37,168 nt of DNA from Opitutales bacterium (GTDB taxonomy: Bacteria > Verrucomicrobiota > Verrucomicrobiia > Opitutales > Seribacteraceae). Where the stretch lies: the NCBI GenBank assembly GCA_028101545.1, contig JAOHKZ010000021.1, forward strand, positions 1 through 37,168, read 5' to 3'. Under the pieces are notes generated by a model. That model searched no databases. It was not told where the DNA came from and worked only from the letters and a program-made list of their open reading frames with translations. A program made the position numbers and the translations under genes. Every line of letters begins with the position of its first letter. Position 1 is the stretch's first letter. Shown here piece after piece: positions 4,241-33,015 of the stretch.

Positions 4241-5314
4241 TCAGTCGACCAAATTCTCGTTTTCTCGGATTGATAGAATTCTAAATGGATATCGTATCTT
4301 TGTATTTTGCTTACTTCTTGGTTTTTGAACTTTTCCCTTTCCAGCTTTTGGAGGAACCTGCATGGCGTTTCCACTTCCAAGAATTGCGTGTAATTGAAAA
4401 TTTGCTTTTCCTTTACTCACTGTGATAAGAACCCGAAAAACAGTAGCAGTTGTACTTGTGCTTATAGATCGATTATTTCTCATTTGAGCGAGTTTTGGAT
4501 CATTCATATTTTTGAAAAATGGATCCCCTGAAGCCCCGGACGGACCAGTAAGAATTTCTTCATAAAGGCTGTCATCGTCACCACATAAAAATTTAACTAA
4601 GTACGAAGAAGCCGTATTGATATTGACTGGGCCATTATGAAAAAATGAAAAACTATCACGAAAATTCTTCATATGGATGGTTTCGCTACCTGATTCTGAA
4701 TAAAATAAACCTGATTCACTAGGCTCATCTGAATCATATGCAAACCCCTTCACCATTCGAAATTCTTCAAAATTCTCTATCTTTTTACCGGGAGTAAAAT
4801 AAGGAAATTCTAAATCTTCATAAAAATCATCTTCTGCACCCTCATCTCTTTCTTCATCATCAGCATCCTGCCAATCCATAAGGGAATCATAAAAGGGTTG
4901 TCCATCGTCCTCATTAACCAAGGAATCTTCTTCGGCCCGCATAATTGAGAACAAAGAGACCAAATCCTTTTCAGAGATAGCGGATATGGGCACTTTTCCC
5001 GATTCATCAATGAGAGAGATAGACCACTGGACTGTAGAATCTAAAGGAGCAATTTCAGCATAGCCCAAAGGATCTCCCCATCCTTGAGAAGGTGCGTAAA
5101 GCGTCTTTTCAAGCATCATGAATTCATTCAAGGCACCAACAGCAACATCCAGTGCGGAATATGCATGCATTCTCAAATCATCACGTCTGTGAAATTGACT
5201 GACATGACGCAATTCTTGAACGGTTTCCTGCATCAAGCGCATACACAAGACAGAGAGCAAAACGATCAACGCTAGAATAAAAACTAAAATTGACCCCCTT
5301 TTTTTAACGAACAT
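4241..5314 (-). CDS. gspK: Minor pseudopilin GspK
   Basis: The largest minor pseudopilin (357 residues), thought to cap the pseudopilus tip with GspI and GspJ. After a short basic leader (MFVKKRG) comes the hydrophobic N-terminal helix SILVFILALIVLLSVLCM. The +5 glutamate of other pseudopilins is absent (Phe here), as is usual for GspK. Family marks are visible: DSLMDWQDADDEER at about 144-157, GAEDDFY at about 159-165 (the calcium-binding and inserted-domain region) and NINTASSYLVKFLCG at about 231-245, the conserved INTA segment. ATG start at 5314 overlaps the stop of gspJ by 1 base. The C-terminal tail after about residue 320 is basic and variable. Confidence 0.88.
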   Translation of the reverse strand: MFVKKRGSILVFILALIVLLSVLCMRLMQETVQELRHVSQFHRRDDLRMHAYSALDVAVGALNEFMMLEKTLYAPSQGWGDPLGYAEIAPLDSTVQWSISLIDESGKVPISAISEKDLVSLFSIMRAEEDSLVNEDDGQPFYDSLMDWQDADDEERDEGAEDDFYEDLEFPYFTPGKKIENFEEFRMVKGFAYDSDEPSESGLFYSESGSETIHMKNFRDSFSFFHNGPVNINTASSYLVKFLCGDDDSLYEEILTGPSGASGDPFFKNMNDPKLAQMRNNRSISTSTTATVFRVLITVSKGKANFQLHAILGSGNAMQVPPKAGKGKVQKPRSKQNTKIRYPFRILSIRENENLVD

Positions 5315-6027
5315 TAAAAGGGTTCCTCCTCAATTCCACTTGGTGCAATCCTTTTGATTGGAATGGTAATTGTACGCTCAAGGTTTTCTTCTTCCCATTT
5401 AAAAACTAGTTTTACGAAAGCGGGAATTCGATATTTCCCTGATTGAATATTTTCCTCCAAACCTTCCAAAATTTCCCATTCTTTTATATCATCAGGACCG
5501 TCATCCGCCTCTCCATAATAACAGTAAAAAACCTGACTACAAAATGGACTGATTAGGGTCTTAAAAAGATCATCTTCATCCTCAGGTTCAAGCCTGCCTT
5601 CATCATTCTTCTCCAATTCCTGAAGTTCGGAAAACCATAAAAAACTTAATCCATCGCCCTCATCGAATTGAAAATAACAATGCACCCGACTAGCTGGTCC
5701 ACCAGGCCAAACCAAAAGAGGAGGTGCTTCCCGCATGTAAAAATGAATCAAAGGATCCTCAGAGTCAGAATATCCCACCGGTCTTTGCAAATCTATAGCC
5801 TGATCCCCGGAACGATTTAAGATGGGTAAAGTAGCCTCCTCCAAAACAGCAGTCAAAAAATGAGCAACACCATTGACATGAGCATCGAAAGCATCTCGGG
5901 TTGCTGGCCTTTCAGCCCATGCCCGGGAAATGGTAATCAAAAGAGATGTTGCAGCAGTCAGAACTAACCCACCGATAGCCAAAGCAAGAAGAACCTCGAT
6001 CATGGAAAAACCCTTAATCTTCCTCAC
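5314..6027 (-). CDS. gspJ: Minor pseudopilin GspJ
   Basis: A 237-residue prepilin-like protein with a type IV N-methylation signal: leader MRKIKG, cleavage before FSMIEVLLALAIGG with Glu at +5, then a hydrophobic helix. Size and position between gspI and gspK identify it as GspJ, a minor pseudopilin of the tip complex. The body is rich in acidic and aromatic residues (for example FSELQELEKNDEGRLEPEDE), and an SGKYRIPAFVKLVFKWEEE strand near the C-terminus resembles the end of GspJ proteins. The start is GTG at 6027, overlapping the gspI stop by 4 bases (GTGA), so translation is probably coupled. Confidence 0.85.
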   Translation of the reverse strand: MRKIKGFSMIEVLLALAIGGLVLTAATSLLITISRAWAERPATRDAFDAHVNGVAHFLTAVLEEATLPILNRSGDQAIDLQRPVGYSDSEDPLIHFYMREAPPLLVWPGGPASRVHCYFQFDEGDGLSFLWFSELQELEKNDEGRLEPEDEDDLFKTLISPFCSQVFYCYYGEADDGPDDIKEWEILEGLEENIQSGKYRIPAFVKLVFKWEEENLERTITIPIKRIAPSGIEEEPF

Positions 6028-6521
6028 TGACGCCTCCTCTGTTCCTGAATTTCCCTGATTTTGTCTCTTTTGTCTTCCAAAAGCCTAGTTCTTTCACTCG
6101 AAAAATCTCCATTCTTACCCCATGTGGGTCGAAAAAGATACATTTTAGAAACTCGTTCCCCACCCTCAATACCAAGTTCATCATTACCTTCATATTCAAG
6201 CGTTAGAGTAACATGATAAACATCTAAAACATCAGACATCTCGACTTCAGTTTCCCATCTTACCTCCCCCATAGACAAGGATTGTATATCACCTCCATCT
6301 TTTATTTTTTCATAATCCGGTTCCTTAAAAATTTCACCTCTTACCCATAGTAAATCCTGCTCCATCTCCCTCGTATCCTTCATTACACGGATCGTACGTG
6401 CAGCAACAAATGCTCCATCAACAAGGTAAACGGCAGATAACCCAAACAAGGCCAAAGCAATTAAAACTTCGATCAACATAAACCCACGATTTCCATTAAT
6501 TGGCACTCGTAATCTCATCAT
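6024..6521 (-). CDS. gspI: Minor pseudopilin GspI
   Basis: A 165-residue pseudopilin with leader MMRLRVPINGNRG and mature start FMLIEVLIALALFGLSAVYL, including Glu at +5. GspI nucleates the GspI-J-K tip complex of the pseudopilus. The soluble part includes GEVRWETEVEMSDVLDVYHV, the conserved WxxxV strand seen in GspI, and a C-terminal YLFRPTW strand. The ATG at 6521 overlaps the gspH stop by 4 bases; a second ATG one codon later is also possible. The final 35 residues are charged and probably disordered. Length is slightly above the usual 120-140. Confidence 0.85.
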   Translation of the reverse strand: MMRLRVPINGNRGFMLIEVLIALALFGLSAVYLVDGAFVAARTIRVMKDTREMEQDLLWVRGEIFKEPDYEKIKDGGDIQSLSMGEVRWETEVEMSDVLDVYHVTLTLEYEGNDELGIEGGERVSKMYLFRPTWGKNGDFSSERTRLLEDKRDKIREIQEQRRRQ

Positions 6522-7057
6522 TCCTTGCTCTTTAAAACATAACCAGAAAAAGGATCAAAATCCATCACCTGTTTATTATCCCTAAAATTAATCTCGACCG
6601 AGAAAGGCACGCTGCATCCGGAATGAAAGAAGACTCTGTTCAAGAGCAGATCCTGTTCATCATATTTAGAATTTCCTCCATCCTCTCCGGCTAACGGACC
6701 AGTGGCAAAAAAGGACACTTTGGGCAAAAGAGAGTCATCGTTCTGTAATTCTTTATCTAATTGTTTATAAACTCGGTGCTCGGATAATATTTGACCAAAA
6801 GAATCTGTAACCTGAAAGGTTGCGTTTTCTTCAAAATAACTCAGATACGCAGCTCTTTTGCTTTCGCTTGCATGGTAAACTGCGTCAAGTACTGCTTTTT
6901 TTAAGACCCTATCTGGCGGTTCAAAATTGCTCCCTTTTATAAATGCTCCAGCATTCCCTGCTACAATTCCAACAAGTACCGCAACCAAGGCGAGAACAAG
7001 CAACACTTCAATAAGGCTGAAGGCACGCTTTCGGTACGCCTCATGTACCTTATTCAA
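6518..7057 (-). CDS. gspH: Minor pseudopilin GspH
   Basis: A prepilin-like protein with hydrophobic N-terminus FSLIEVLLVLALVAVLVGIV after a basic leader (HEAYRKRA). Position between gspG and gspI and a size of about 180 residues identify it as GspH, the minor pseudopilin linking the tip to the shaft. The residue before the cleavage site is Ala rather than the near-invariant Gly (codon GCC). No ATG is available. The chosen start is TTG at 7057, which follows the gspG stop by 1 base and gives a leader of about 12 residues; a TTG at 7084, overlapping gspG by 26 bases, is the alternative. The C-terminal half is beta-rich (VPFSVEINFRDNKQVMDFDP), as in GspH. Confidence 0.8.
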   Translation of the reverse strand: MNKVHEAYRKRAFSLIEVLLVLALVAVLVGIVAGNAGAFIKGSNFEPPDRVLKKAVLDAVYHASESKRAAYLSYFEENATFQVTDSFGQILSEHRVYKQLDKELQNDDSLLPKVSFFATGPLAGEDGGNSKYDEQDLLLNRVFFHSGCSVPFSVEINFRDNKQVMDFDPFSGYVLKSKE

Positions 7058-7058
7058 A

Positions 7059-7478
7059 TTATTTCCCGGTATCCCAATTTCCAATTATTGTGCCATCAGG
7101 CGCGGTGGTCGAAATATCAAAGCTTCCTGGGTTATTAGTTCCTGGATATTGATAAACATAATCTTTGCCCCATGGGTCCTGAAGATCAGAAGAGCGTTTA
7201 ACGAACGGTGGTGTACCAGCAGGAGGGGTTTTTAAATCATTTAAGCTTTTGGGATATTCTCCAACCAGGGCAAAATAACTAGTCACATATGCCTCTCCAG
7301 TACTATTAACCCAAGTTTGGGCAGCTTTCACTTTCCCTCCTCCAAAAATCTCTCCTAAGTTTGACATGGCCAATCCAGCAACAATGCCAATCAAAGCCAA
7401 AACAATTAAGATTTCAACTAGGGTGAAACCCTTTTGCTTGCGAATAGAATGAGAAAGGTTTTGTGATGAAATTTTCAT
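7059..7478 (-). CDS. gspG: Major pseudopilin GspG
   Basis: A 139-residue major pseudopilin, building block of the periplasmic pseudopilus that drives substrates through the secretin. It has leader MKISSQNLSHSIRKQKG, mature N-terminus FTLVEILIVLALIGIVAGLA with Glu at +5, and the GspG-specific C-terminal region DLQDPWGKDYVYQYPG followed by GSFDISTTAPDG, the DPWG and calcium-loop region of the family. The second conserved helix carries YFALVGEYPKSLNDLKTPP. ATG start at 7478. It is the first gene of the minus-strand operon, so the promoter should lie in 7479-7595, shared divergently with nuoA. Confidence 0.92.
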   Translation of the reverse strand: MKISSQNLSHSIRKQKGFTLVEILIVLALIGIVAGLAMSNLGEIFGGGKVKAAQTWVNSTGEAYVTSYFALVGEYPKSLNDLKTPPAGTPPFVKRSSDLQDPWGKDYVYQYPGTNNPGSFDISTTAPDGTIIGNWDTGK

Positions 7479-7512
7479 ACTTAGAATTTAATTGATGGAA
7501 AGTGCATTTGGC

Positions 7513-7542
7513 AAGCCTCTTGAAATAAATCTCAAAAGGCTT
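7513..7542. promoter_or_regulatory. Imperfect inverted repeat in the gspG-nuoA divergent gap
   Basis: Arms AAGCCTCTTG (7513-7522) and CAAAAGGCTT (7533-7542) are complementary except at one position, with a 10-base A/T-rich spacer. It lies between two divergently transcribed genes, 35 bases from the gspG start and 54 from nuoA. No T-run follows on either strand, so it is more likely an operator or mRNA leader hairpin than a terminator. I found no convincing -35/-10 pair beside it. Confidence 0.3.
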
Positions 7543-7595
7543 CCTTTAGTCGGAATATACTTGCCTCCAAGCCAATTACATACAAATCATAATGT

Positions 7596-7970
7596 ATGAC
7601 ACTTTTAGACTATTTACCTGTTCTTATCCAAATTCTTTTGGCTATCGGAATGGGCTTTGGTATTCTTTTTGCCAGTCATCTATTTGGACAAAAGGCAACT
7701 GCAGGAAAAATTAAAGATTCCCCCTATGAATGTGGATTAGCATCTGAGTCGAAAGGGGAAACACGATATTCTGTTAAATTTTACATCACTGCGATGCTTT
7801 TTATATTATTTGATATTGATGTAGTCTTTCTTATCCCATGGGTGCTGACGCATCGCGATTTAGTTGCAGCAGGTATTCCTATTCTAGGCCCCATGCTCTT
7901 CTTTACATTTGTGCTCGTTGCAGGCTTGATTTACGAATTGAAAAGTGGTGCTCTTGAGTGGGAGAAGTAA
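7596..7970 (+). CDS. nuoA: NADH-quinone oxidoreductase subunit A
   Basis: A 124-residue membrane subunit of respiratory complex I (NADH to quinone, proton pumping). Three membrane helices are visible at about residues 8-30, 64-86 and 94-116. Family motifs are present: DSPYECGLAS after helix 1, with the conserved Cys of the quinone-site loop, and RYSVKFYITAMLFILFDIDV with VFLIPW in helix 2, where acidic residues take part in energy coupling. ATG start at 7596. No nuoB-N genes follow: the next gene is an unrelated three-domain protein, so the rest of complex I must be encoded elsewhere. It is divergent from the type II secretion operon. Confidence 0.92.
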   Translation: MTLLDYLPVLIQILLAIGMGFGILFASHLFGQKATAGKIKDSPYECGLASESKGETRYSVKFYITAMLFILFDIDVVFLIPWVLTHRDLVAAGIPILGPMLFFTFVLVAGLIYELKSGALEWEK

Positions 7971-8029
7971 TAAAATACACTCTATTACACAAACGGGTTA
8001 TTTACTCGTTTATTTTCACACGATAAGAG

Positions 8030-9385
8030 ATGCATATTGATCGATACATCTCAAGTAATCGAATTATCGACATCTCCAGTAAAAACTTGGCTTCTGCCTA
8101 CTCTGAATTACTGGATACATTTACCAACCTCCTGCCAACTCCTGGTAAGCGTAAAAAAGTACTCAATGAATTAATAGACCGGGAAAAATCCCTATCTAGT
8201 TACCTTGGGGAAGGCGTTGCTCTGCCTCATGCCCGCGTCTCTATGAAAAGACCATATGCTCTTGCCATTGGCAGGTGTCCAACCGGGTTGGCTTTTGAAG
8301 GAAAAGACAGTTACGAGGATGTTCGCTTTGTCTTTCTACTTCTCGCGAGCGAAAAAGCGAAAAACTACCTCTCTTTCCTTGCCGCTTTGGCCCGTTCGTT
8401 TCAGGACAATTCGGTCATGGACCAGTTATGGATGGCCCGGGAGAAAAATGAATTTCGCACCGCGGTTCGCAAAGCCTTTGCAGGCACAGATGATCGTCCC
8501 GCCAGAAGGAGAACCAAGTTTAATAAACTTCTTACCGATGAGGCCGCAAAAATTGCCAAGGCAGCGGAATGTTCAACCATTTTAATTTTTGCGGATGTCT
8601 TCCCCCCTAGCCTTGCGCCCAGAATGACCTTTCCTGGCTTCAAGGTAGTTCTTGCGGGGCAGGATGTTTCTGATGACGACAAAGAACACCAAAGAGCCGA
8701 CGCAATACTTGCTGTTCGTGCCCTTTCACGATCCCGTCTTTCTCAGCTTCGGGCCGCTATTCTACTCGGACTGACCAGAGATATATTTGGCTTTCAGGAT
8801 CGAGTCTGTTGCATCGGAGGCATTCCCAACAGTGGTCAATTAGACACCGTCTTAGTGGTGGATGTTGATGAAGAGTTCGAATCTGTTATTGGGCATGGTG
8901 AAGAAATGCTTCCGCCAGATGTTTCAGCCGAGGCCCTTGAAAGAATAACTGCAATCGCAACCGATCTTGCATCTACAGGTCGCGAAGGAAAGTCTATTGG
9001 TGCCATGTTTATCTTAGGCGATTACAAGGAGGTGAATAAGCGTTCAAAACCATTAATTCTTAATCCTTTTCATGGTTACGACGAAGAAGATCGCAGTATA
9101 CTAAATCCCTTTATGGATGAAACTATTAAGGAGCTTGCCCTGATTGACGGTGCATTCATAGTTCGCGGCAATGGGGTTGTTGAATCTGCTGGGTGTTTGA
9201 TCCAAGCTAAAGCTGATGATATCATCTTGCCGGGCGGGTTGGGCACACGTCATGCCGCGGCAGCCGCCATAACCCATGTAACAGACTCCCTTGCCTTAGT
9301 TGTCTCCTCTTCCGGTCAGGTAACTTATTTTAGAAAAGGACAAATGTTTACCCTCTTCGATAAGTCAGAGGGCCGGTCTTTATAA
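8030..9385 (+). CDS. EIIA-Ntr-like / PK-C-like / diadenylate cyclase (DAC) fusion protein
   Basis: A 451-residue cytoplasmic protein that probably makes c-di-AMP from two ATP. Residues about 1-150 resemble PTS EIIA of the nitrogen/fructose type; LGEGVALPHARV (59-70) places the phosphorylatable histidine at His67. Residues about 165-255 (TDEAAKIAKAAECSTILIF through SRLSQLRAAILLGLTRDIFG) look like the pyruvate-kinase-C-terminal-like domain of archaeal DacZ-type enzymes. The C-terminal about 110 residues are a DisA_N/DAC domain with DGAFIV (DGA motif 373-375) and LPGGLGTRHAAAAAIT (RH motif 407-408), then a DSLALVVSSSGQVTYF strand. The third residue of the classical RHR motif is Ala409. No membrane helix is present, unlike CdaA. 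ATG start at 8030, 59 bases after nuoA; nadD starts 7 bases after its stop. Activity and the EIIA role are inferred. Confidence 0.85.
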   Translation: MHIDRYISSNRIIDISSKNLASAYSELLDTFTNLLPTPGKRKKVLNELIDREKSLSSYLGEGVALPHARVSMKRPYALAIGRCPTGLAFEGKDSYEDVRFVFLLLASEKAKNYLSFLAALARSFQDNSVMDQLWMAREKNEFRTAVRKAFAGTDDRPARRRTKFNKLLTDEAAKIAKAAECSTILIFADVFPPSLAPRMTFPGFKVVLAGQDVSDDDKEHQRADAILAVRALSRSRLSQLRAAILLGLTRDIFGFQDRVCCIGGIPNSGQLDTVLVVDVDEEFESVIGHGEEMLPPDVSAEALERITAIATDLASTGREGKSIGAMFILGDYKEVNKRSKPLILNPFHGYDEEDRSILNPFMDETIKELALIDGAFIVRGNGVVESAGCLIQAKADDIILPGGLGTRHAAAAAITHVTDSLALVVSSSGQVTYFRKGQMFTLFDKSEGRSL

Positions 9386-9392
9386 TGATCGG

Positions 9393-9992
9393 ATGGAGAA
9401 AACTACCCGAACTATCACTTCCCGAATTGGCTTCTTTGGTGGTTCATTTGATCCGGTTCACATTGGTCACCTCGAACTTGCCAAGGAGGCTATCCACTTT
9501 GCATCGCTCGACCTTTTACTTTTCTGCCCGGCTTTTCATGCTCCGCTTCGTAATCAAAAACCCGTCTTTTCGGCCGAGCAGCGTCTCAATATGCTATATA
9601 AAATAACGGAAAAAGATTCCCGCATGGATGTATGCACTCTTGAAATTGAAAAACAAAAAACTTGTTTCACCTATCATACTCTTCAGGAAGTCCGTTCGAT
9701 TTATCCAAACTCTGAATTATTTCTACTGCTTGGTGCCGATCAATTTGAACAACTTGAAAAATGGAAATTCAATCAGGAACTGGCTAAAATATGCCAATTT
9801 CTTGTCTTTTCTCGATCAGCAAAAAAAGTGTCTCCTCCAACCGTTAAGAATATAAATTATCAACTTATTGAGAATGAATTAGTCGAAATTTCATCCACTC
9901 AAATACGCAGCCGATTAAATAATAGACAACCAATAAACAAACTCGTTCCACCAAACATCAACCCAATGATCCAAGAATACTTTCCTTCTTAA
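9393..9992 (+). CDS. nadD: Nicotinate-nucleotide adenylyltransferase NadD
   Basis: A 199-residue enzyme that converts nicotinate mononucleotide and ATP to deamido-NAD in the NAD pathway. It has the nucleotidyltransferase signature GGSFDPVHIGH at 16-26 (HxGH for ATP binding) and the C-terminal ISSTQIRSRL motif at about 166-175, both diagnostic of NadD. An LLLGADQFEQLEKW segment matches the conserved GxDxxxxxxxW substrate loop. The ATG at 9393 lies 7 bases after the DAC-fusion stop; rsfS follows 9 bases downstream, so the three genes are probably one transcript. Length is usual for the family. Confidence 0.93.
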   Translation: MEKTTRTITSRIGFFGGSFDPVHIGHLELAKEAIHFASLDLLLFCPAFHAPLRNQKPVFSAEQRLNMLYKITEKDSRMDVCTLEIEKQKTCFTYHTLQEVRSIYPNSELFLLLGADQFEQLEKWKFNQELAKICQFLVFSRSAKKVSPPTVKNINYQLIENELVEISSTQIRSRLNNRQPINKLVPPNINPMIQEYFPS

Positions 9993-10001
9993 CAAAAATT
10001 T

Positions 10002-10376
10002 ATGACTACTGTAATTCCAAAAGAAAAAAGTGAACTACGCAAAAATTTAAAAACTGCCTGCGATGCACTGTTGGACAAAAAAGGTGAAAATATCAAATTA
10101 CTCTACTTTGGTGGAAAATCATCCCTCACTGACTGCTTCATTATAGCCACTGGAAATTCTAATCCACAAATTAAGGCACTTCGCGATAATGTTGAAAAAA
10201 CCCTTAAAGAAAATGATGTTGAATTATTTTCCAAGGATCGCTTTCAACCAAGTGGTTGGTTAGTTATCGATGCCATTGATTTTGTCGTCCACATTTTTTC
10301 TGAAGAACAAAGGAAAAATTACGCTATCGAACAATTGTGGAAAGATGCGGAGGAAATTCTACTGGAAGATCTATAA
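10002..10376 (+). CDS. rsfS: Ribosomal silencing factor RsfS
   Basis: A 124-residue RsfS/DUF143-family protein, which binds ribosomal protein L14 on the large subunit and blocks subunit joining under poor nutrition. The family core is clear: DCFIIATGNSNPQIKALRDN in the middle and SGWLVIDAIDFVVHIFSEEQ followed by RKNYAIEQLWKDAE at the C-terminus, where LExLWxDA is the hallmark. It directly follows nadD, a pairing common in bacteria. ATG start at 10002. The plus-strand unit seems to end here, but no clear intrinsic terminator is visible. Confidence 0.92.
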   Translation: MTTVIPKEKSELRKNLKTACDALLDKKGENIKLLYFGGKSSLTDCFIIATGNSNPQIKALRDNVEKTLKENDVELFSKDRFQPSGWLVIDAIDFVVHIFSEEQRKNYAIEQLWKDAEEILLEDL

Positions 10377-10405
10377 TAAATTTCCGATTTAGATTCTGCT
10401 TCCGA

Positions 10406-10435
10406 TTGACTACCTTAACTTCTTTCAAATTATAT
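10406..10435 (+). promoter_or_regulatory. Possible sigma-70-like promoter upstream of the Gfo/Idh/MocA gene
   Basis: TTGACT at 10406-10411 (one mismatch to the -35 consensus) is followed after 18 bases by TTATAT at 10430-10435 inside an A/T-rich run. It lies 65 bases upstream of the ATG at 10501. The run also offers TATATA at 19-base spacing. Promoter consensus in this lineage is not certain, so this is only a candidate. Confidence 0.3.
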
Positions 10436-10500
10436 ATTAAATTAAAGAATAAAATTAGATTACTTCCTTTTTCTTAACCTAATCAAATAAGGCACAAATT

Positions 10501-11784
10501 ATGACAAACCGACGCTCCTTCCTCAAGAAAGCATCTTTTGCAACCGCTCCGTTTCTTTTACCATCCCACATATGGGCCGCAAAAGGAGAAGCATCCCCTA
10601 ACAACCGCATTAATATTGCCATCATCGGACCAGGTAAAATGGGCAGAACCCATGCACATAAACTTATCCGCAATCCCCGAGCCCAGATTACTGGATTTGC
10701 TGAAATTGCCGATATCCGCACCAAACACACTAAGGACCTGATTGAAAAGCATTACTCCCAAAATACCCCAGGTGATAAATGGAAAGGGCTTAAAATAACC
10801 AACGACTATTTGGAACTACTCGAGGACAAATCCCTCGACGCCGTTCTGATCGCCACTCCTGACCACTGGCATGGCGAAGCCACTATCAGAGCGGCCAGAG
10901 CAAAAAAACATGTTTATTGTGAAAAACCAATCTCTTTAACCATCAAGGAAGGACGGGCTATGGCTCAGGCTGTAAAAGAAAACAATGTAGTTTTCCAAAC
11001 GGGTAGCCAACAACGATCTGAATACGGTGGTAAATTTCGTCGTACCGTGGAAATGGTACGGAGTGGAGCTATTGGCGAATTAAAAAAGATCCGTGTTTGT
11101 GTGGGTGGCCCACCAAAACCATGTGATCTTCCGACCGAACCCACTCCAGCAGGAATTGATTGGGATGCATGGCTCGGGCCAGCTCCGATGCGTGGATTCA
11201 ATAAAATCCTCTGCCCGGATAATGTACATAACCACTTCCCCGCCTGGCGTCGCTACCGTGAATATTGCAATGGTGGTCTTGCCGATATGGGTGCCCATCA
11301 CTTTGATATTGGTCAATGGGCTATGGATGCGGACAATACTGGTCCCGTCAAAATCATCCCACCCAAGGAAGGTGAACATGACCTGAAAATGATCTATGCC
11401 AATGGCGTGGAAGTACATCATGGTAGTACTCCAGACTGGCGCGGAGGGACTATTTTTTATGGTACCGAGGGAACCATTTGGGTGGATCGAGGACCATGGA
11501 AATCAGATCCCGAAAACCTGATCAAAGGTTTCAAAGCCACAGTCAGTTTACGCCAGCCAAAGAATCACCATGATGACTGGCTCGACTGTATACACTCCGG
11601 CGAACTTCCCCTTGCTCATGCTGAAGCTGGTCACCGTACAGCCACACTTTGCCAGCTTTGTAATATTGGATACGAACTCCGTCGCGAACTCACATGGGAT
11701 CCGAAAAAGGAAGTATTTGTCGGGGATAAAGAAGCTAATAAACTTACCGACCGTAAACGCCGTAAAAAATGGTACCGTGTCTAA
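10501..11784 (+). CDS. Tat-exported Gfo/Idh/MocA-family oxidoreductase
   Basis: A 427-residue NAD(P)-dependent sugar or inositol-type oxidoreductase carrying a Tat signal: NRRSFLKKASFATAPFLLPS at 3-22, cut near HIWAAKG. The Rossmann fold starts with INIAIIGPGKMGRTHAHKL, then LDAVLIATPDHWHGEATIRA and the signature HVYCEKPIS, whose EKP lysine is catalytic in the family. The C-terminal GFO_IDH_MocA domain has GLADMGAHHFDIGQWAM, with a histidine usual at the active site. This subfamily is abundant in Verrucomicrobiota and Planctomycetota, where many members belong to polysaccharide use; the substrate cannot be read from sequence. Stand-alone gene, converging on the 383-residue protein gene with a 12-base gap. 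Confidence 0.88.
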   Translation: MTNRRSFLKKASFATAPFLLPSHIWAAKGEASPNNRINIAIIGPGKMGRTHAHKLIRNPRAQITGFAEIADIRTKHTKDLIEKHYSQNTPGDKWKGLKITNDYLELLEDKSLDAVLIATPDHWHGEATIRAARAKKHVYCEKPISLTIKEGRAMAQAVKENNVVFQTGSQQRSEYGGKFRRTVEMVRSGAIGELKKIRVCVGGPPKPCDLPTEPTPAGIDWDAWLGPAPMRGFNKILCPDNVHNHFPAWRRYREYCNGGLADMGAHHFDIGQWAMDADNTGPVKIIPPKEGEHDLKMIYANGVEVHHGSTPDWRGGTIFYGTEGTIWVDRGPWKSDPENLIKGFKATVSLRQPKNHHDDWLDCIHSGELPLAHAEAGHRTATLCQLCNIGYELRRELTWDPKKEVFVGDKEANKLTDRKRRKKWYRV

Positions 11785-23541: not shown

Positions 23542-26500
23542 TTAAAAACTAATTTTGTACCCCATTGAAGATAAAGTGGCTGATTGCCCAGTGAGTGCAA
23601 ATTCAGACAAAATTGTTTCTTTTTGTCCATCGCTAAAAATACTAGAGGATTGAACGAAACTAAGAACAGATTCAATATTACTTAAGCTTGAAAAAACTAG
23701 AGCAATTCTTGCATCCTGAAACTTTTCTGGAGTTAACCAAGAAGAATTTTGATGGTCATATAAAGTCCAGTTTTCCCCATTCTCACGGGTACCATTCCAA
23801 CTCAACCAACGAGATAAATCATTAACATATATATATGGAAAATAAAGATCACCTGACCAAAACCAACCCATATCTTGATGCCACATCCAAGTTGTCGACT
23901 CAACTTGTGTTTTTTCCGCAAGATATAACCAACCCATTTTAGTGTGGTAAATCCAATTATTAGAGTTTTCTTTATAATAACCAAATTTTTGCAAAAATCT
24001 CCAATCGGGAAGCCCCGAAGCTCTTGTAACGGTTATCTCAACCTGACCTGTAGCATTTCGATCTCCGTCAGTAAGAGTATAAGAGAAAGATTGGGGACCA
24101 ATGAAAGAACTTGATGGCTGATATGTAAAAGAATCACCATATTTCAGCAAAGTTCCTAATTCAGGCAATAAAGTTCCATTAATGTTTGTTTTAGCCCATT
24201 TGGATATGGTAAGAGCAGTAGAACCAGCACCATTAGGATCTGCAATATCATTACTCATTACATTTAAAAGAAGCACAGCAGAGCCAGAGTTATCATATGT
24301 AAACTCATCCTTTACTGCGATTGGGTATTTCTTTTGTACATAAATTGTCACAGGAAAAGACTCAGAGTAACTTCCATTGTCGGTCACAAGTAATGTTACA
24401 GAATCTGACCCAATATAGCCAAGATTTGGTGTATAAACATAATTACCGCCACCAGAATCAGTCCATGAGCCATTTTGAGGTTTTTGGGTGACAGAGAAAT
24501 TTCCAATATCTCCGACATCCGGATCAGAAACACTTAAATTAAAATTAAGGGAACTATCTGCATCAACATAAAGATCGATCAAACTTAAATCTTGCAACGC
24601 TCCCCCATCAACAGAGGCAAATACATCAGGTGCTTCATTTTGGTCTTTAACTTCTATAGAGAAAGCTTGGTACTGGAATGGATTTGTACCATCAGAAACT
24701 GCTACCTGAACATCGTAAAAATTATCGGTTCCTATATCTAATTTTGATTCGAAATTAGGAGGAGACTTAAAAGTAAGAGTACCGTTCTGATCAATCGCGA
24801 ATAAGGCGTTATCATCTGGGTTGGAAGGAACTATTGAAAAATTAAGATCTAGAACAAGATCATCTGTAGCCTCAACTCTTCCAACATAACTTGTATTCTC
24901 ATTTACTTGGATTGAGACTGTTTGTTGACCATTATAGCTTGTTATGGTTGGTGGAGATTCGTCAACATTGAAGACATCAATTACAATTGGATAATCAACA
25001 AGGTTTCCGGGATTCCCATCGGTGACCCTTATAGTAAGCTTATAGGTATTGTTTAAACCAATATCAAAAGGGTTTTCAAAATCTGGAGGAGTAGGAGTAA
25101 ATCTCAGTTTTCCATTTGAATCAAGGATGAATGAACCATTATCATCTTCCCCTCCTACGATATCAAGCGATACTGAAGTATTGTCATCTGCATCCGAAGA
25201 ATTAAAATCGACAATTTGCATTAAACCTTCCGGATGATTAAAAATAGTTGTTCCAGAAGAGTTCAAACCGGAAACAAAAGGCACCGAATCATTAGTGCCT
25301 GTGATATTAATAGTTAAAGTAAAACTATCAGAACCACCTTTTCCATCAGTAACATTTAAATCCAACATATAAATATTATTAGGAGTGCCAGGGTTTTCAA
25401 AATCAGGTAAAGCGTTTTGTCGGAAACGAAGGTTTCCATTATCTTCAAGATATAAATATTGGAATGCTGAGCTATTTTCATCTGCCCAAAACCAAGTAAG
25501 AGAATCTCCATCACCATCGTCAGCTGTGAGTATTCCGACTTGCGCAGTATTTTCCGGGTGAAAAACTGTAGAGGGATAAGTAATTATGGGTGCATCATTG
25601 GAATTATTTATATCGAGATAAAAAATCTTGTCTGCGTACAAACCCTGATCGTCAGTAACACGGACCGTTAATTGGTCGATTCCTGTTTTATTATCATCAG
25701 GAGAATACCATAAATTAGGACCGGCCGAATAGTTCGCGTTTGAACCAATAAAACCTGCAGAACCAATTGAAGGAGGAACAATAACACTTAATTGCAGTTT
25801 TCCCGTCATGTTGTTATCAGTAGCATTCCGATCCGTAATATTAAAAGGAATAGAGGTATTAGTATCTTCCTGTACAACGATAGTATCCTTGCCGGTAGCT
25901 ACGACAAAAAACGGCTTATCATTTCCATTGATTACATTAACGGTTAACACCTGGTTTGATGAAGCGGGTGGCATACCAGTATCAGTTGCTTTTATAATTA
26001 CATTGTAAGAATTTTGACTCTTTGAATCCGTAGGGGATTCATAATCTGGCGGGCTTTTAAATGTAAGAATTCCAGTGGTTTGGTTCAAATCGAATTCACC
26101 GTCATCTAATCCTCCACCAAAACTAAAGATAGTATTTTGAACAAGGGACTCATCATTTGTGGTGTTTGAATCATAAACAATTCCGGTCATATGCTCAGAA
26201 ACATTTAAATCAACATTCCCCCCTCCTGTAAAAACTGGTGGTTCGTTTGTATTTGTTACAGTGATGGAGACAGCTTTTTGTGTCTTACCTGTAACATTGT
26301 CATCCACTTCAACTAGAATTTCATATTGATTAATTTTATCCTTATCAACCGGGTTTTCATAATCTGGTGGATCGTTAAAAAATAAATTCCCAGAAAAAAG
26401 TGGGCGAAAAGAAAAACGGGTCACATCGTTACCACCAACCACACTGAATCTAAGGTTATCTTTTTCATTATCTAAATGAGCAAGTGAGATTGAATTAATT

Positions 26501-29500
26501 CCATAAATACCACTTACAACCCTGTTGCCAGATAAAGTAAAACCTCCTAACCCATTATTAATAAACCACATTAATGAATCATCGGTGGGAGATGAAGCCG
26601 CAATGTCCATAAACCCATTGTTATTAAGATCTCCAACTTGGATAGAGGTAAACTGTGAACCGCTAGTATAGAAGAAATCTGGGGAAGAAAACTTTCCCGG
26701 ATCATTTGCATTTTGAAGCATTACACCAATCTTGTTAGGATTTGTTGCAACCAATACAATATCAAGCTTATCATCACTGTCGATGAAAGCAAATTCAGCA
26801 ATTCTGGCCTGCCCGCCGGTGTGTTGGTACAACTGCGTGGCTTCACCAAAGCTACCATTTCCATCGTTGAAAAATAAAGAGAAGTTACCATCGTTTATTG
26901 AAGTTACCAAGACATCCAAGTCGCCATCGTAATCCGCATCGCCTAAAACTGCCGTTCTTGGCGAGTGAACTATACTGATAGAATTTACTAAAGTTTCACC
27001 TTCAGAAAAAGTAAATCCGCCACTTGAATCATTATCATACCATGTTATTCGATGATCAGTAGAAGAAACTGCCACAATGTCCAAGTCGCCATCGTTGTCA
27101 ATGTCACCTGCATCAACAAAAGTCACTCCGCTAACATTATTATCAACAGCACCCCCGAAGTTAAACCCACCCGACTTATCGTTTTTATACCACGAAACAT
27201 TACCATCATCAGATAAAGCAACAACCAAGTCCGGATATCCATCCTCATTAACATCAGCGACCACCGCATGGTCGGGACCAGAGCCCTCTGGAACTGTTGA
27301 AACTTCAACTGCTGCCCCAAAATTCCCGCCCCCCGTGTTGTAGTAAAAATTTATACTGTCAGAGCCCTCCCTTAGTGCAAAAACATCCATTTTTCCATTC
27401 CGATCAAAATCTGCCGTACCAACAAAAGATACATTCGAAGTGGTGGCAGTTATGTCAATATTTTGACTTGCCTGAAAGCGCGAGACTGAAGCACCCGTAT
27501 TTTCAACCCAATTAACTGAACCATTTTCAACAATATATACAACATCAAGCAAGGATGCATTTCCATCTTCATCAGAAGCTCGAAGATTACCAACTTTTAG
27601 TTGATTTTCTGGTATAACATAAGTAAGTGTTCCTGATGTATCAAAAGTGGGTAAATCATTGGTATCATTTATTGTAAAAGACCATTCTTGTGTTAGGAAG
27701 TATTCACCATCTGAAACCGTTACATTTACATCATAAACTTGATCTGCTCCTTGATCTAATGGATTTTCATAATCACCAAATCCATTAGCAAATGTAAGTA
27801 TTCCTGTAGCTGCATTCATAACAGTTGCATTTCCATCTACTCCACTCACACTGTAGACCAAATTCTGCCCCCCAGGATTTGGTCCATAATCTACCACTCG
27901 AGAGGCAAAATTTAACATATGAGTGGCATTTTCGTCCAAACTGTAAGAAATACTGGGGCTACTTGGTACACCTGGTATAAAAATAGGCGGATCATTTTCG
28001 TCTACTATGTTAATTAATAAATTTTGCTTCTTCGTAAGAGGCGGAGAACCATTATCATTTGCCAGAACCTGGATATTGTAAACGCCCCCAAGACTAGGAG
28101 TAATTCCACCATACAATGGTGTAAACGCAGGATTTTCCCAATCAACCCCTGAATTTAATGTAATTAAACCAGTGGTTGGATGAATAGAAAAGATAGATGA
28201 ATGCCCTTTCCAACTAGCATTTAATTCAAAGGTAATCGAATCATTTTCCTGATCCGTTACATTGGCATCGTATACATAGGTAGTATTCTCAGAAACATTG
28301 ATATCCAAGTAGTAGTCTGTACTGTTATGTTCTTTCCGCTCCAAAGCCACGGTTGAAAAAACTGGGTATTCATTCACATTGGTAACCAGAACCCGTACCG
28401 GATAATGAGTAAATAAACTACTATCATCGGTGATCGTAATATTAAAATCAAACAGCCTATTATTTGCACCAGAACTTACCGGGGAAGGAAGGTCATAATC
28501 TGGAGAAACAGAAAAATACAAGGAACCATTACTTTCAATTTTAAAGTGCGAAGAATCGGCACCAGTTACCCCCCATTGAAAAACAGTGGAGTCATTATTA
28601 TCCTTTTCATCCGCTGCCAAAAAGTCACGCACATGTAAATTATTTTCAACTACAAGTATTGGGTTTGGAGTACCAGAACTATTATTTGCATCCGAAATGA
28701 CTGGCGAATCATTCACGGAATTTATAAATACAGAAACCTGATAAGTTGAATTCAAATCAAGATCAGTTGCCATGACATAAAAGACATCAGCACCTGTAAC
28801 ATCAGGATCAGGAACATAGCTGACTTGACCACCTTGAAAAGCAACAGTCACAGTACCCTTAGAGGTTTTGTAAGTACCATTTTGATCGCTTCCATTGGAA
28901 TTTGTGGCATACCAGTAAAAAGGATCCCCTTCAGGATCAGTTGCAGTTATATGTGTCCAAGTACTATTCCAGTCACTTGCAGTTGCATCCTCCTGTAAAG
29001 TAACAGAAAATGGCCCGGCATTACTAAATGCAGGTGGATCAGGTGCGTCGATTACAAAGATCGAAAGTGGATAAGAAGTACTTGCTCCCTGCAGATCAGT
29101 AACAGTGATGATAACCTCATACTGATTGTCCCCATTTGTAAAAGTTGGCGAAATCGCAAAAGACAAAACTCCTTGAGAATTTAGCTTAAAATAACTCTTG
29201 TCTATTCCACCTAAAGACCACGATAAGTTGGAAGGCGGAGTCGCATTCCCCAAGTCATTTGCATCGGTTCCATTAAAATCAATTACCGTTATTGTTTTTT
29301 CGGGGTGATTCATGGAAGGACCTACCGTAATTGGTTGCAAAATAGTGGGTGCATCATTGACAGGATGAACTGTGACCTCAACCGCAATTGTCGCATTGAA
29401 TTCTCCGTCCGTGACATTTACATCAAAGTAATCTACACCATAATAATGCTCAGTTGGAACATAACTCAAAATTCCTCCCAATGCAGTAAGTGACGGCGTG

Positions 29501-32500
29501 CCGTTGGTATCAGATCGCGGACTGATTGTCCAATTCAAGACACTAGATAAATCAGGATCAAAAATGAATTGGGACAAATTATTGTCTAACCCTGTATAAT
29601 TGGCATCAGGGAATGATCCATCCTCATTCATTTCATATACCAACTTACCAAGAGAAAAAGTAGGAGGTTCATTGGCATCATTAACTCGAACCCGAACAGC
29701 GAGAGTATCATTAGCATCACCGGAATCTTTGACCATAACCACGAATTCATAGGTGTTATTCTGACCGACAGATAAATCATTATCATAGTCCGGCGAATTC
29801 GTAAAGGTAACTACTCCATTTGCATCAATTTGAAAATGTCCATGATCAGTATGAGAATTATTAAAATCCTTCCCCAACAAACTCCAATTATAAGTATCAT
29901 TTCCACTCGGATCATCCGCCAGATCTGTAACATCGAAATCATAAACACTTGCATTATTCTCAAACCGCTCAAGAGGAACAGCAAAACTTGCTTTATTAGA
30001 TATGAAAGGTGAGTCATTAACTGAATTTATTGTCAAATCTACTCGGAGGGTACCTATTAAGTTGGTGCTATCCGTAGCATTAATTTCAAATGAATCAACA
30101 CCATAAAAGTCCGCGTTAGGAGTATAAGTAAAAGCACCAGTCAGAGAACTGAAAGTTGATTGTGCAGTGTTGTTGCTGAGTGTGCCATTTTGAGGGATCG
30201 AATGCGTAAAGGTAATAGTTTCAAAAACTTCTGGATTAAAGACTATTGAACTGGCATTAAAATCGACGCTTCCATCTTCATTCAAAGTTAGAGATTGTAC
30301 ATTAGGAGTAAAAACTGGTGCCTCATCTATACCTATAACTTGAATCTGCATGGATTTATTACCTTCGGCCAAGCTAGTATCTCTAACCTCAACCGTTAGG
30401 TCATAAACCGTGACACCCGCATCTGCATCCGCAGGACTTTTAAAATATAAACTTCCATTGTTCTCATTAACAAAGAAGTAGGACATGTTACCATCCACCA
30501 AGTACCAACGTAATGTATCATTATCATCATCATGGGCAGTTAAATTCATAATGAAGGTTTCATTTTCATTTACAGAAGTATTCACTCCCGATGTAACCGC
30601 AGGCGGGTCATTAACATCAGTCACAACTACTGAAATATTCTTAGTTGCAGGTGCACCACGAGGATCTTTTACTCTTAGACTAATTTCGTATGAATTGTTA
30701 ATATCCTGATCAACTGGAGATTCATAGTCCTTAGTTGTTTTGAATCGTAGAGTCCCATTTGCATCAATTGAAAATTTATTATCATCCTCAGTACTTGGGT
30801 CATTAACGATTTCCCATGTAAATGCAGAATCAGGAAGGCTGTTTTCTGCATCATCAATATCTGAAACATTTGCATCCAAAACATAGAGTGAATTTTCGAG
30901 AACATTAATTGAATTAGGCACATCCACAAAGGAAGGAACCTCGTTAATATCGATGATTCGAATATGTAAAGTTTGGAATTTCTGAGGTGCAGCCGTTCCA
31001 TCTTCTATACGAATCGTAACCGTATAATTCCCGTCAAAATCAAAATCATTGGTATTCTCATAATCAGGCAAACCTTTGGAATGGGTTGCATTCCACTCTA
31101 GTTGCCCGGTGGATGAATTAATGAAAAAACGATCTTTATCCTGCCCTCCATGGATAACATAATTTAAAGTATCACCATCTACCTCATTCGCAGTTATAAA
31201 TATGGGATCTGGAGCATTCTCATTTGCATACACAACGACGCTTTCATTGCCATCAAAACTAGTAACATAGGGCGAATCTGAAACTGGGGTAATAGAGAGA
31301 TTAAAGACTAAATCCGCAAACAACCCCCCCGGATCAGTTGCTCTAATTGTAAAAGATTCAGCACTCGTTGAATTCCCTTCGGGCATGTACCAAAAATCAG
31401 CAGGTAAACTACCAGTTCCATCACACACCAACGTACCGCGGGACGGAAAAACGACGACACTCCATGTTAAATTTCCATCGTGATTTAAATCTTGGTCGTC
31501 GATGGACAAATCAGGCGACATATCATTTAAACCTGACCAATTACTATCTTCGTTAATAGTGAAAGAGAATGGAGAGCTTAGCAAAGCATCATAAACAGGT
31601 ACCTCATTCACATCCTCGACCCGGACAGTTACAACCTGAGAAACATATTGCCCCGCACCGAATGTTGTATCTTCTATATTTACTCCTACTGAGTACAACC
31701 CTCCATTTTTGGGGTCATTTTCAAAGTCTGGGGCAACTTTAAATTCAATTAAACCCGTTACGGTGTTTAGGTTAAAATAGTTCCAATCAGCAAAAGAAGT
31801 ATCCTTCGAGAAGGCAATGGTTCCATTATCAGGATCACTTGCAGTTACATCGATCACGGTAGTAGTGTTTTCGTTAGTAATCAAAGAATAGTTAGAATCA
31901 TCAAAGGTTGGAGTATCGTCGTTCACGGGATTGACTGTGACATTAACTGTCATAACAGCAGAGCGGTTAGAAGCATCAGTAATAGTAATATCAAAATTAT
32001 CAGAACCATAAAAATTTGTATTGGGCGAATAACTTATCGAATTGAAGTCCCCCGTAGGCTGATCAAGAGATGAAATCCCACTACTTGACTGTGAAGAAAT
32101 AGACCATGTAATAACACCCCCTTCTGGATCCTGGGCGAAAAGGGTTAATCCGGGCCAAGGGGTTGGTGCTTTATCCTCACTCATAACCCTAGAAATTGAA
32201 GATCCACCACCGGCAAAATAGGGAGCTTCTTCCACATCTTGTAAAACCACTTGTATAGTTTGAGAATCAGTATTCGAAGCATCCGATGCTGTAATATTAA
32301 GATTAAAAGTCCTACCTGGACCGACTGGTGGATTTTCATAATCTAAGGGACTATTGCTATGAAGATAAAAAGTATAGGGATCTGGGCCAGGTTGTATGTT
32401 GAATTTACTTCCATCTGTCCCTGTGGTTGCCATAACGAATGAAGAGGAGTCAGGATCATCGATTGTGATAGTGGTAACCAAGGTCTGATTTTCAGGCAAA

Positions 32501-33015
32501 GAATACTGAGCTGTAGTACCCGATGTAAAATTACTATCTGTCTTGGCTCCGCCTGTACCCGTAAAGACATTTGGTACATCATCATCAGGGGTTATGGTTA
32601 TTTGAAAACGATAACTACTTCCGGGAGAAACAGAACTAGGGTAAAGGTTTAAGGTATTAACATCGGTTGCATTCCAATCAAAAGAATCATTTCCATATTC
32701 GTTTGCAAATGGAGTGTATTGAAAGTGACTTTTATTATTGTCAGGGTGTGGTGTTAAACTTCCTTTTAGCGGGCTAATCGTAGTCCAAGAGCCAAAAGAT
32801 ATTGAGCCTCCAGGATCAACAATTGGCAAAAATACATCAACAGCTGGAGAATCTTCCGGCAAAGTAAGGGTTGATGATGGATGATTAATCTGGGCAGACA
32901 AACTTTGAGTAATCAATAAGCCACAAAAGCCATAAAATAGAACCCGATTAAAAATACTATTATTCAAACGCCGGGAATATGATATTAAGGGAATTTTCAC
33001 TAAGCATAGATACAA
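23542..33015 (-). CDS. Giant cadherin/Ig-like repeat surface protein with nested FG-GAP propeller
   Basis: A protein of about 3157 residues, very likely a secreted or cell-surface adhesin. A signal peptide (RVLFYGFCGLLITQSLSA, cleaved near residue 41) leads into about 22 cadherin/VCBS-type repeats. These are recognisable by recurrent linkers (VNDDTPTF, VNEVPVY, VNDPPAV, VNDSPFI, NEPPTF, DENDPPIF) and by the recurring PDYENP and D-x-N-D calcium-binding elements. At about 1826-2185 lies an FG-GAP/VCBS beta-propeller with six clear blades bearing D-x-D-x-D-G-x-x-D loops (DIDNDGDLDI, DADYDGDLDV, DLNNNGFMDI). The C-terminal 150 residues contain a W/Y-rich module (NNWIYHTKMGWLYL, TTWMWHQDMGWFWSG) and a helical tail ending YKISF. 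The start is uncertain: TTG at 33015, GTG at 33000 or TTG at 32967, with no ATG before the signal. The frame is unbroken over 9.4 kb. Ligand unknown; the barrel gene follows. Confidence 0.85.
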   Translation of the reverse strand: MYLCLVKIPLISYSRRLNNSIFNRVLFYGFCGLLITQSLSAQINHPSSTLTLPEDSPAVDVFLPIVDPGGSISFGSWTTISPLKGSLTPHPDNNKSHFQYTPFANEYGNDSFDWNATDVNTLNLYPSSVSPGSSYRFQITITPDDDVPNVFTGTGGAKTDSNFTSGTTAQYSLPENQTLVTTITIDDPDSSSFVMATTGTDGSKFNIQPGPDPYTFYLHSNSPLDYENPPVGPGRTFNLNITASDASNTDSQTIQVVLQDVEEAPYFAGGGSSISRVMSEDKAPTPWPGLTLFAQDPEGGVITWSISSQSSSGISSLDQPTGDFNSISYSPNTNFYGSDNFDITITDASNRSAVMTVNVTVNPVNDDTPTFDDSNYSLITNENTTTVIDVTASDPDNGTIAFSKDTSFADWNYFNLNTVTGLIEFKVAPDFENDPKNGGLYSVGVNIEDTTFGAGQYVSQVVTVRVEDVNEVPVYDALLSSPFSFTINEDSNWSGLNDMSPDLSIDDQDLNHDGNLTWSVVVFPSRGTLVCDGTGSLPADFWYMPEGNSTSAESFTIRATDPGGLFADLVFNLSITPVSDSPYVTSFDGNESVVVYANENAPDPIFITANEVDGDTLNYVIHGGQDKDRFFINSSTGQLEWNATHSKGLPDYENTNDFDFDGNYTVTIRIEDGTAAPQKFQTLHIRIIDINEVPSFVDVPNSINVLENSLYVLDANVSDIDDAENSLPDSAFTWEIVNDPSTEDDNKFSIDANGTLRFKTTKDYESPVDQDINNSYEISLRVKDPRGAPATKNISVVVTDVNDPPAVTSGVNTSVNENETFIMNLTAHDDDNDTLRWYLVDGNMSYFFVNENNGSLYFKSPADADAGVTVYDLTVEVRDTSLAEGNKSMQIQVIGIDEAPVFTPNVQSLTLNEDGSVDFNASSIVFNPEVFETITFTHSIPQNGTLSNNTAQSTFSSLTGAFTYTPNADFYGVDSFEINATDSTNLIGTLRVDLTINSVNDSPFISNKASFAVPLERFENNASVYDFDVTDLADDPSGNDTYNWSLLGKDFNNSHTDHGHFQIDANGVVTFTNSPDYDNDLSVGQNNTYEFVVMVKDSGDANDTLAVRVRVNDANEPPTFSLGKLVYEMNEDGSFPDANYTGLDNNLSQFIFDPDLSSVLNWTISPRSDTNGTPSLTALGGILSYVPTEHYYGVDYFDVNVTDGEFNATIAVEVTVHPVNDAPTILQPITVGPSMNHPEKTITVIDFNGTDANDLGNATPPSNLSWSLGGIDKSYFKLNSQGVLSFAISPTFTNGDNQYEVIITVTDLQGASTSYPLSIFVIDAPDPPAFSNAGPFSVTLQEDATASDWNSTWTHITATDPEGDPFYWYATNSNGSDQNGTYKTSKGTVTVAFQGGQVSYVPDPDVTGADVFYVMATDLDLNSTYQVSVFINSVNDSPVISDANNSSGTPNPILVVENNLHVRDFLAADEKDNNDSTVFQWGVTGADSSHFKIESNGSLYFSVSPDYDLPSPVSSGANNRLFDFNITITDDSSLFTHYPVRVLVTNVNEYPVFSTVALERKEHNSTDYYLDINVSENTTYVYDANVTDQENDSITFELNASWKGHSSIFSIHPTTGLITLNSGVDWENPAFTPLYGGITPSLGGVYNIQVLANDNGSPPLTKKQNLLINIVDENDPPIFIPGVPSSPSISYSLDENATHMLNFASRVVDYGPNPGGQNLVYSVSGVDGNATVMNAATGILTFANGFGDYENPLDQGADQVYDVNVTVSDGEYFLTQEWSFTINDTNDLPTFDTSGTLTYVIPENQLKVGNLRASDEDGNASLLDVVYIVENGSVNWVENTGASVSRFQASQNIDITATTSNVSFVGTADFDRNGKMDVFALREGSDSINFYYNTGGGNFGAAVEVSTVPEGSGPDHAVVADVNEDGYPDLVVALSDDGNVSWYKNDKSGGFNFGGAVDNNVSGVTFVDAGDIDNDGDLDIVAVSSTDHRITWYDNDSSGGFTFSEGETLVNSISIVHSPRTAVLGDADYDGDLDVLVTSINDGNFSLFFNDGNGSFGEATQLYQHTGGQARIAEFAFIDSDDKLDIVLVATNPNKIGVMLQNANDPGKFSSPDFFYTSGSQFTSIQVGDLNNNGFMDIAASSPTDDSLMWFINNGLGGFTLSGNRVVSGIYGINSISLAHLDNEKDNLRFSVVGGNDVTRFSFRPLFSGNLFFNDPPDYENPVDKDKINQYEILVEVDDNVTGKTQKAVSITVTNTNEPPVFTGGGNVDLNVSEHMTGIVYDSNTTNDESLVQNTIFSFGGGLDDGEFDLNQTTGILTFKSPPDYESPTDSKSQNSYNVIIKATDTGMPPASSNQVLTVNVINGNDKPFFVVATGKDTIVVQEDTNTSIPFNITDRNATDNNMTGKLQLSVIVPPSIGSAGFIGSNANYSAGPNLWYSPDDNKTGIDQLTVRVTDDQGLYADKIFYLDINNSNDAPIITYPSTVFHPENTAQVGILTADDGDGDSLTWFWADENSSAFQYLYLEDNGNLRFRQNALPDFENPGTPNNIYMLDLNVTDGKGGSDSFTLTINITGTNDSVPFVSGLNSSGTTIFNHPEGLMQIVDFNSSDADDNTSVSLDIVGGEDDNGSFILDSNGKLRFTPTPPDFENPFDIGLNNTYKLTIRVTDGNPGNLVDYPIVIDVFNVDESPPTITSYNGQQTVSIQVNENTSYVGRVEATDDLVLDLNFSIVPSNPDDNALFAIDQNGTLTFKSPPNFESKLDIGTDNFYDVQVAVSDGTNPFQYQAFSIEVKDQNEAPDVFASVDGGALQDLSLIDLYVDADSSLNFNLSVSDPDVGDIGNFSVTQKPQNGSWTDSGGGNYVYTPNLGYIGSDSVTLLVTDNGSYSESFPVTIYVQKKYPIAVKDEFTYDNSGSAVLLLNVMSNDIADPNGAGSTALTISKWAKTNINGTLLPELGTLLKYGDSFTYQPSSSFIGPQSFSYTLTDGDRNATGQVEITVTRASGLPDWRFLQKFGYYKENSNNWIYHTKMGWLYLAEKTQVESTTWMWHQDMGWFWSGDLYFPYIYVNDLSRWLSWNGTRENGENWTLYDHQNSSWLTPEKFQDARIALVFSSLSNIESVLSFVQSSSIFSDGQKETILSEFALTGQSATLSSMGYKISF

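Follow-up and report, generated by a model that had tools for sequence, protein, structure and literature searches.

In enteric bacteria EIIA-Glc, a component of the PTS, controls adenylate cyclase. Among the diadenylate cyclases (DACs), the class DacD was reportedly defined by Corrigan and Grundling in 2013 through its PTS EIIA domain, and the 2023 survey by Galperin (All DACs in a row) is said to cover 22 DAC families and very likely lists this architecture. Five DacD members, from Lacunisphaera, Puniceicoccaceae, Coraliomargarita, Verrucomicrobia and Opitutae bacteria, are named in a figure legend (PMC6741144, Figure A1 legend), and the same paper groups the archaeal enzymes DacZ and DacY/CdaZ as a single family whose N termini are PK_C-like (PMC6741144). 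For c-di-AMP to form, two DAC domains must meet head to head, a contact that GlmM prevents when it inhibits CdaA (PMC8573169). In other bacteria ties to potassium balance are described for the PTS-Ntr (PMC13104625) and for c-di-AMP (PMC7900238). No experimental study of a cyclase fused to EIIA came up in a non-exhaustive literature search.

Domain architecture and genomic neighbourhood

The window, by which we mean the whole stretch of 37,168 nucleotides that was analysed, is located on contig 14 of an Opitutales assembly (G000; 2.2 Mb, 57% complete). An open reading frame on its plus strand (8030-9385) with an ATG start encodes a protein of 451 amino acids, and the features of this protein and of the adjoining genes are as follows:

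7596..7970, plus strand, nuoA-type gene (NADH-quinone oxidoreductase subunit A), directly upstream of dac (PF00507, E 2.4e-28)
8030..9385, plus strand, dac, EIIA-DacZ_P-DAC diadenylate cyclase, 451 aa (open reading frame, Pfam, AlphaFold2 model, Foldseek)
8099..8467, plus strand, PTS_EIIA_2 domain, residues 24-146 (PF00359, E 4.3e-20; IIA-Ntr structure matches)
8228..8230, plus strand, codon of His67, the putative phospho-acceptor (conservation; alignment with the PtsN PH motif)
8528..8881, plus strand, DacZ_P domain, residues 167-284, a probable sensor or linker (PF21755, E 4.6e-12)
8969..9343, plus strand, DAC catalytic domain, residues 314-438 (PF02457, E 5.7e-20; CdaA structures in the fold search)
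9146..9154, plus strand, DGA motif, residues 373-375 (alignment)
9248..9256, plus strand, RHA in place of the RHR motif, residues 407-409 (alignment)
9393..9992, plus strand, nadD, 7 bases downstream of dac
10002..10376, plus strand, rsfS, after nadD

A preliminary description of the window had proposed that one protein joins an EIIA domain, a pyruvate-kinase-C-like (PK-C-like) region and a DAC domain, and all three parts were recovered above their Pfam cut-offs, with 72.6 bits for PTS_EIIA_2 (cut-off 27), 46.1 bits for DacZ_P (cut-off 27.4) and 71.5 bits for DAC (cut-off 27). The profile search that it suggested for the EIIA and cyclase domains was clearly positive (E 4.3e-20 and E 5.7e-20, respectively), and all three families were detected at E 0.001 or better in 59 of 59 members of alignment A1, which consists of the window protein and 58 of the 79 kept relative loci. 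An AlphaFold2 model built from this alignment had a mean pLDDT of 82.8 and a pTM of 0.56, which means that the domains can be trusted and that the arrangement between them is uncertain. In a Foldseek search with this model, the best 50 of 321 matches (E up to 0.001) were structures of the IIA type and of DACs, headed by IIA-Ntr; the IIA-Ntr structures 3urr, 2a0j, 4gqx and 1a6j were among the top matches and CdaA structures matched the DAC part. The EIIA assignment of the N-terminal part in the preliminary description stands on matches by both profile and fold. A sequence search of the PDB again gave the IIA-type and DAC groups.

The middle domain had no structural match among the best 50 of the 321 Foldseek matches, and its fold is therefore assigned from Pfam, which annotates DacZ_P as a probable sensor. 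The earlier label 'PK-C-like' for this region holds at the family level (DacZ_P) but goes too far for the PK_C model itself, which was weak and appeared in relatives (L205, E 0.0024; L198, E 0.058), and for the fold, which was unmatched in those 50. His67 and Asp373, the two residues singled out in that description, were found at these positions within GVALPHAR and DGA.

The genes around the cyclase are conserved to different extents. Of the 115 loci that had 600 bases or more ahead of dac, 105 had a single nuoA-type gene there in the same orientation, at a distance between aligned ends of 8-526 (median 64), a further four loci being too short; these are counts of loci and not of genomes, from which four known duplicates were removed and in which others may remain. 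None of the nine distant or EIIA-less loci with room had nuoA upstream. The gene nadD, which is possibly on the same transcript as dac in the window, followed the cyclase in 31 loci by tblastn, each with 77% identity or more to the window protein, and rsfS together with nadD was detected downstream just in the near group of the window. An operon link with nadD and rsfS was rejected as a general feature, nuoA being the wider conserved neighbour, with the proviso that a diverged nadD could escape tblastn. A promoter scan of positions 7400-10600 gave 11 sites, compared to 7.1 expected in shuffles, and no c-di-AMP riboswitch was found in the window, where tRNA alone reached the Rfam cut-off. Further along the window, an open reading frame of 3157 residues (23542-33015) carries bacterial Ig, cadherin and FG-GAP repeats and likely encodes a giant surface or secreted protein, and a run of minus-strand open reading frames (4241-7478) with several prepilin-like N termini resembles, by eye, a pseudopilin cluster of a type II secretion system or pilus.

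Distribution of the fused cyclase

Relatives were encoded by 129 stretches in the genome collection; the best 79 of these 129 loci had 42-98% identity and all came from Verrucomicrobiota, mostly Opitutia. The cyclase was present in 47 of a set of 57 genomes, own genome included (27 of the same genus, 10 of the same family and 20 of the same order), with the gene split over two contigs in G036 and G046. We also used a phylum sample of 387 genomes, consisting of 63 of the same order (own included) and 324 from outside it. A near full-length match was found in 59 of the 63 same-order genomes, one of them with an internal stop (G398), and the remaining four (G054, G197, G349, G432) had no DAC domain. 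In 56 of these 59 genomes no DAC other than the fused protein was found, and the other three (G223, G274, G361) had a second one.

Outside the order, six of the 324 genomes had a near full-length match (G059, G089, G210, G298, G369, G431), the copy of G369 being listed with an internal stop, and all six except G059 had a second DAC. DacZ_P-DAC proteins without the EIIA part were found outside the order in G167, G296 and G397, that of G296 as a contig-end fragment. A DAC of some kind was present in 312 of the 324 genomes, in open frames that were mostly of 256-363 residues, with a few longer, among the matches listed. Ten of 30 outside-order DAC loci (L165-L194) were examined, and a motif search led to an open frame in five, all of which were CdaA by TIGR00159. 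The order therefore carries the fused form where the rest of the phylum, within this sample, has CdaA-sized DACs. The near full-length copies in 59 of the 63 same-order genomes rule out a unique fusion, and the rarity implied by the preliminary description did not hold up, as the fused protein is the cyclase normally found in this order and the class name DacD already existed.

Two variants were seen in the course of this survey. G223 encodes, beside its fused copy, a second DacZ_P-DAC protein of 300 residues without EIIA (L207:6738-7637). In G167, from outside the order, DacZ_P-DAC forms the end of an 840-residue open frame (L204:6006-8525), the first part of which matched no Pfam family at E 0.1.

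Proposed phosphorelay control of the cyclase

Conservation was counted on 114 of 135 aligned sequences (125 distinct), with the EIIA-less L204-L207 and the fragment L226 left out and six distant fused sequences set apart. His67 was His in 109 of the 114 and in all six distant sequences, and is one of 21 positions conserved at 95% or above within residues 1-150, where the mean frequency of the top residue is 0.59. In the PDB sequence search it lines up with the PH-motif His of PtsN structures. Residue 113, which we take to be the position of the second active-site His of PTS EIIA type 2, is Tyr in 113 of the 114, compared to His in PtsN 4gqx and 3urr, and is His, Phe and Leu in two each of the distant fused sequences. 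The five sequences lacking His67 fall into two clades of a FastTree tree that was built without the EIIA columns and on which the EIIA-less L204 and L207 are counted as well. One clade consists of L062 and L152 (both Tyr) and the other of L208, L209 and L210 (Ser, Ser and Cys; from G226, G200 and G355, respectively). The EIIA score was below the Pfam cut-off of 27 bits in L208-L210 (26.1, 23.9 and 15.9 bits) compared to 57.7 bits in L152, and two of the three Ser/Cys-clade members had lost Arg69 as well as His67. Both clades retain a full-length protein with DGA and RH, which shows that this His can be lost while the cyclase is kept. In L210 and L198 DacZ_P likewise fell short of the Pfam cut-off, and L199 lacked it.

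In the DAC domain, Asp373 and Gly374 of the DGA motif, which the window protein has in full, and Arg407 and His408 were invariant (114/114), with Ala375 in 101 of the 114. The window protein has RHA instead of the RHR motif. Residue 409 was Ala in 98 sequences, Ser in 15 and Val in one, and since it was never Arg in the 114, catalysis is not assured; the six distant fused sequences have Thr (4), Ala (1) and Arg (1, L199) at this position.

The preliminary description had seen no HPr or EI gene, which is true of the window, but both are present elsewhere in the genome. One copy of HPr (G000:C18:16354) and one EI (N-terminal domain at G000:C18:17985) adjoin on contig 18 in convergent orientation. 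Their domains are ordinary by Pfam, the EI containing three PEP-utiliser domains and no GAF domain, and the motifs GIHARPA in HPr and GGRTSH in EI are presumably the phosphorylation sites. Within this 57% complete genome the fused EIIA is the sole EIIA_2 and no HPr kinase was found.

Across the set of 57 genomes HPr was found in 51, EIIA_2 in 48, PTS_EIIC in one (G048) and EIIA-man in one (G003); the survey of acceptors covered these last three families. HPr was present in 43 of the 47 cyclase-bearing genomes and was not found in G011, G025, G041 and G043, two of which are 93-95% complete. No further EIIA_2 was found in 42 of the 47, the exceptions being G028, G038, G045, G048 and G056. The cyclase occurred with HPr and without any other EIIA_2, PTS_EIIC or EIIA-man in 37 of the 47 genomes (genus 19/22, rest of family 9/10, rest of order 9/15), a total that is weighted by one genus, which supplies 19 of the 37. 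A strict coupling between loss of HPr and loss of His67 was not supported: G041 and G043 (L195, L196) retain His67 with no HPr found, and G038 (L152) has Tyr at position 67 together with HPr and another EIIA_2 in a 1368-residue frame.

EI was searched for genome-wide in the own genome and at HPr loci elsewhere. Among 30 HPr loci of about 3.2 kb each (L102, L106-L134), an EI of at least 64% identity was located beside HPr in 11 (own genome and ten of its family) and a 32% match in L130 (G003), with none seen in 18. In longer stretches EI was found in L229 (G055, 48%) and not in L227, L228, L230 or L231. Many same-order genomes of the phylum sample, above all in family f13, had a second match to the EIIA part among the matches listed, in frames of about 160-235 residues with some longer, and the picture of a single acceptor therefore fits the family of the window best. 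G054, a same-order genome without a DAC, has HPr and a free EIIA (L197:6370-6924) that by eye directly follows a P-type-ATPase-like gene.

The reading we lean towards is phosphorelay control of the cyclase in cis, in which EI and HPr would phosphorylate His67 and so set the output of a soluble diadenylate cyclase. Phosphate from PEP would pass to EI and on to HPr, and HPr would then phosphorylate His67 in the EIIA domain. The phosphorylation state of His67 may be relayed through the DacZ_P domain and would alter the head-to-head meeting of two DAC domains, changing the yield of c-di-AMP from ATP. By analogy, the phosphorylatable N-terminal domain could act at the same head-to-head step as GlmM. 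That the protein makes c-di-AMP is itself a prediction from its DAC domain. Control by phosphotransfer, an idea of the preliminary description, fits most of the results, which point to it through sequence comparison (the conservation of His67, the presence of EI and HPr and the few other acceptors). Weighing against it are the loss of His67 in two cyclase-bearing clades, the four genomes with the cyclase where HPr was not found, Tyr113 in place of the second His, the missing second Arg of RHR and the further EIIA-like matches in other Opitutales.

The EIIA domain might instead mainly dock HPr or partners such as potassium transport proteins, with a metabolite bound by DacZ_P setting the cyclase and phospho-His67 tuning partner binding. 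In keeping with this, PtsN is described as regulating potassium proteins (PMC13104625), Pfam regards DacZ_P as a probable sensor, and PK_C-fold proteins bind fructose-1,6-bisphosphate or FMN (PMC6741144). We nevertheless consider it rather unlikely, as EIIA and cyclase share a single chain throughout this order and also in 6 of the 324 genomes from outside it, which makes an effect in cis on the cyclase the simpler reading. It is less probable still that EIIA is a structural or oligomerisation module whose phosphorylation has no role. The conservation of His67 in 109 of 114 sequences speaks against such a module, as do HPr in 43 of 47 cyclase-bearing genomes with no other EIIA_2 in 42, and the joint loss of Arg69 and His67 in two of three members of the Ser/Cys clade, even though full-length proteins with DGA and RH persist in both His67-less clades, Tyr replaces the second His of PtsN and His67 is kept in G041 and G043 where HPr was not found.

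A last alternative concerns the catalytic domain, which may be inactive or weak because RHR is incomplete, making the protein a sensor and not a synthase. Residue 409 is Ala, Ser or Val in all 114 sequences, and DGA and RHR are described as required for ligand binding (PMC8573169). However, no DAC besides this protein was found in 56 of the 59 same-order genomes having one, D373, G374, R407 and H408 are invariant, and other DacZ_P-type proteins vary at position 409 too (among the distant fused sequences Arg is found in L199 alone), which together leave this alternative highly improbable.

Under phosphorelay control in cis, c-di-AMP control may be the main output of the relay, as many of these bacteria have no PTS_EIIC-family permease; they keep the start of the chain while showing little trace of transporters for sugar, and its present role may be c-di-AMP control. 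A broader and more tentative proposal, which we hold to be less likely than not, is that the PTS no longer transports sugars in the family of the window and in several further families of Opitutales, with EI and HPr surviving mainly for the c-di-AMP synthase. If true, a PEP-driven relay would end in a second messenger, joining the glycolytic state to c-di-AMP.

Comparison with known systems

Both the DacD class and the Pfam families are already published and thus known; what this analysis adds is the genomic setting, with its relay context around the cyclase. If the coupling is real, it would offer an explanation, open to test, of how c-di-AMP synthesis is set across a bacterial order, and it would give a role to a PTS in which few transport components are recognised. 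Two potassium-linked systems, the PTS-Ntr and c-di-AMP, meet here in one protein.

The window protein has its EIIA domain N-terminal to DAC, in agreement with the reported definition of DacD, and like the members in the legend cited above it comes from the Opitutae group. Its best NCBIfam DAC match is DacZ (NF041371, E 2.4e-28, residues 239-441), although the score of 99.2 bits is far from the cut-off of 430 for this haloarchaeal equivalog. It shares with DacZ/CdaZ a DacZ_P domain (PK_C-like, by Pfam family) before DAC, and differs from the archaeal proteins in its added N-terminal EIIA and in the Ala at the third RHR residue. The DAC fold is common to CdaA/DacA, for which TIGR00159 gives 30 bits (cut-off 188.8).

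On the PTS side, the EIIA part matches IIA-Ntr (PtsN) structures, and the occurrence of EI and HPr with PTS_EIIC in one of the 57 genomes may be a likeness to the PTS-Ntr. Unlike PtsN, this EIIA is fused to a cyclase, has Tyr at the second His and scores 48.5 bits with TIGR01419 (cut-off 138.7), and unlike in the PTS-Ntr the EI of G000 has no GAF domain. The proposed setting of a nucleotide cyclase by a PTS EIIA would resemble the control of adenylate cyclase by enteric EIIA-Glc, which differs from the window protein in being a separate protein of another fold and in acting on a cyclase whose product is cAMP.
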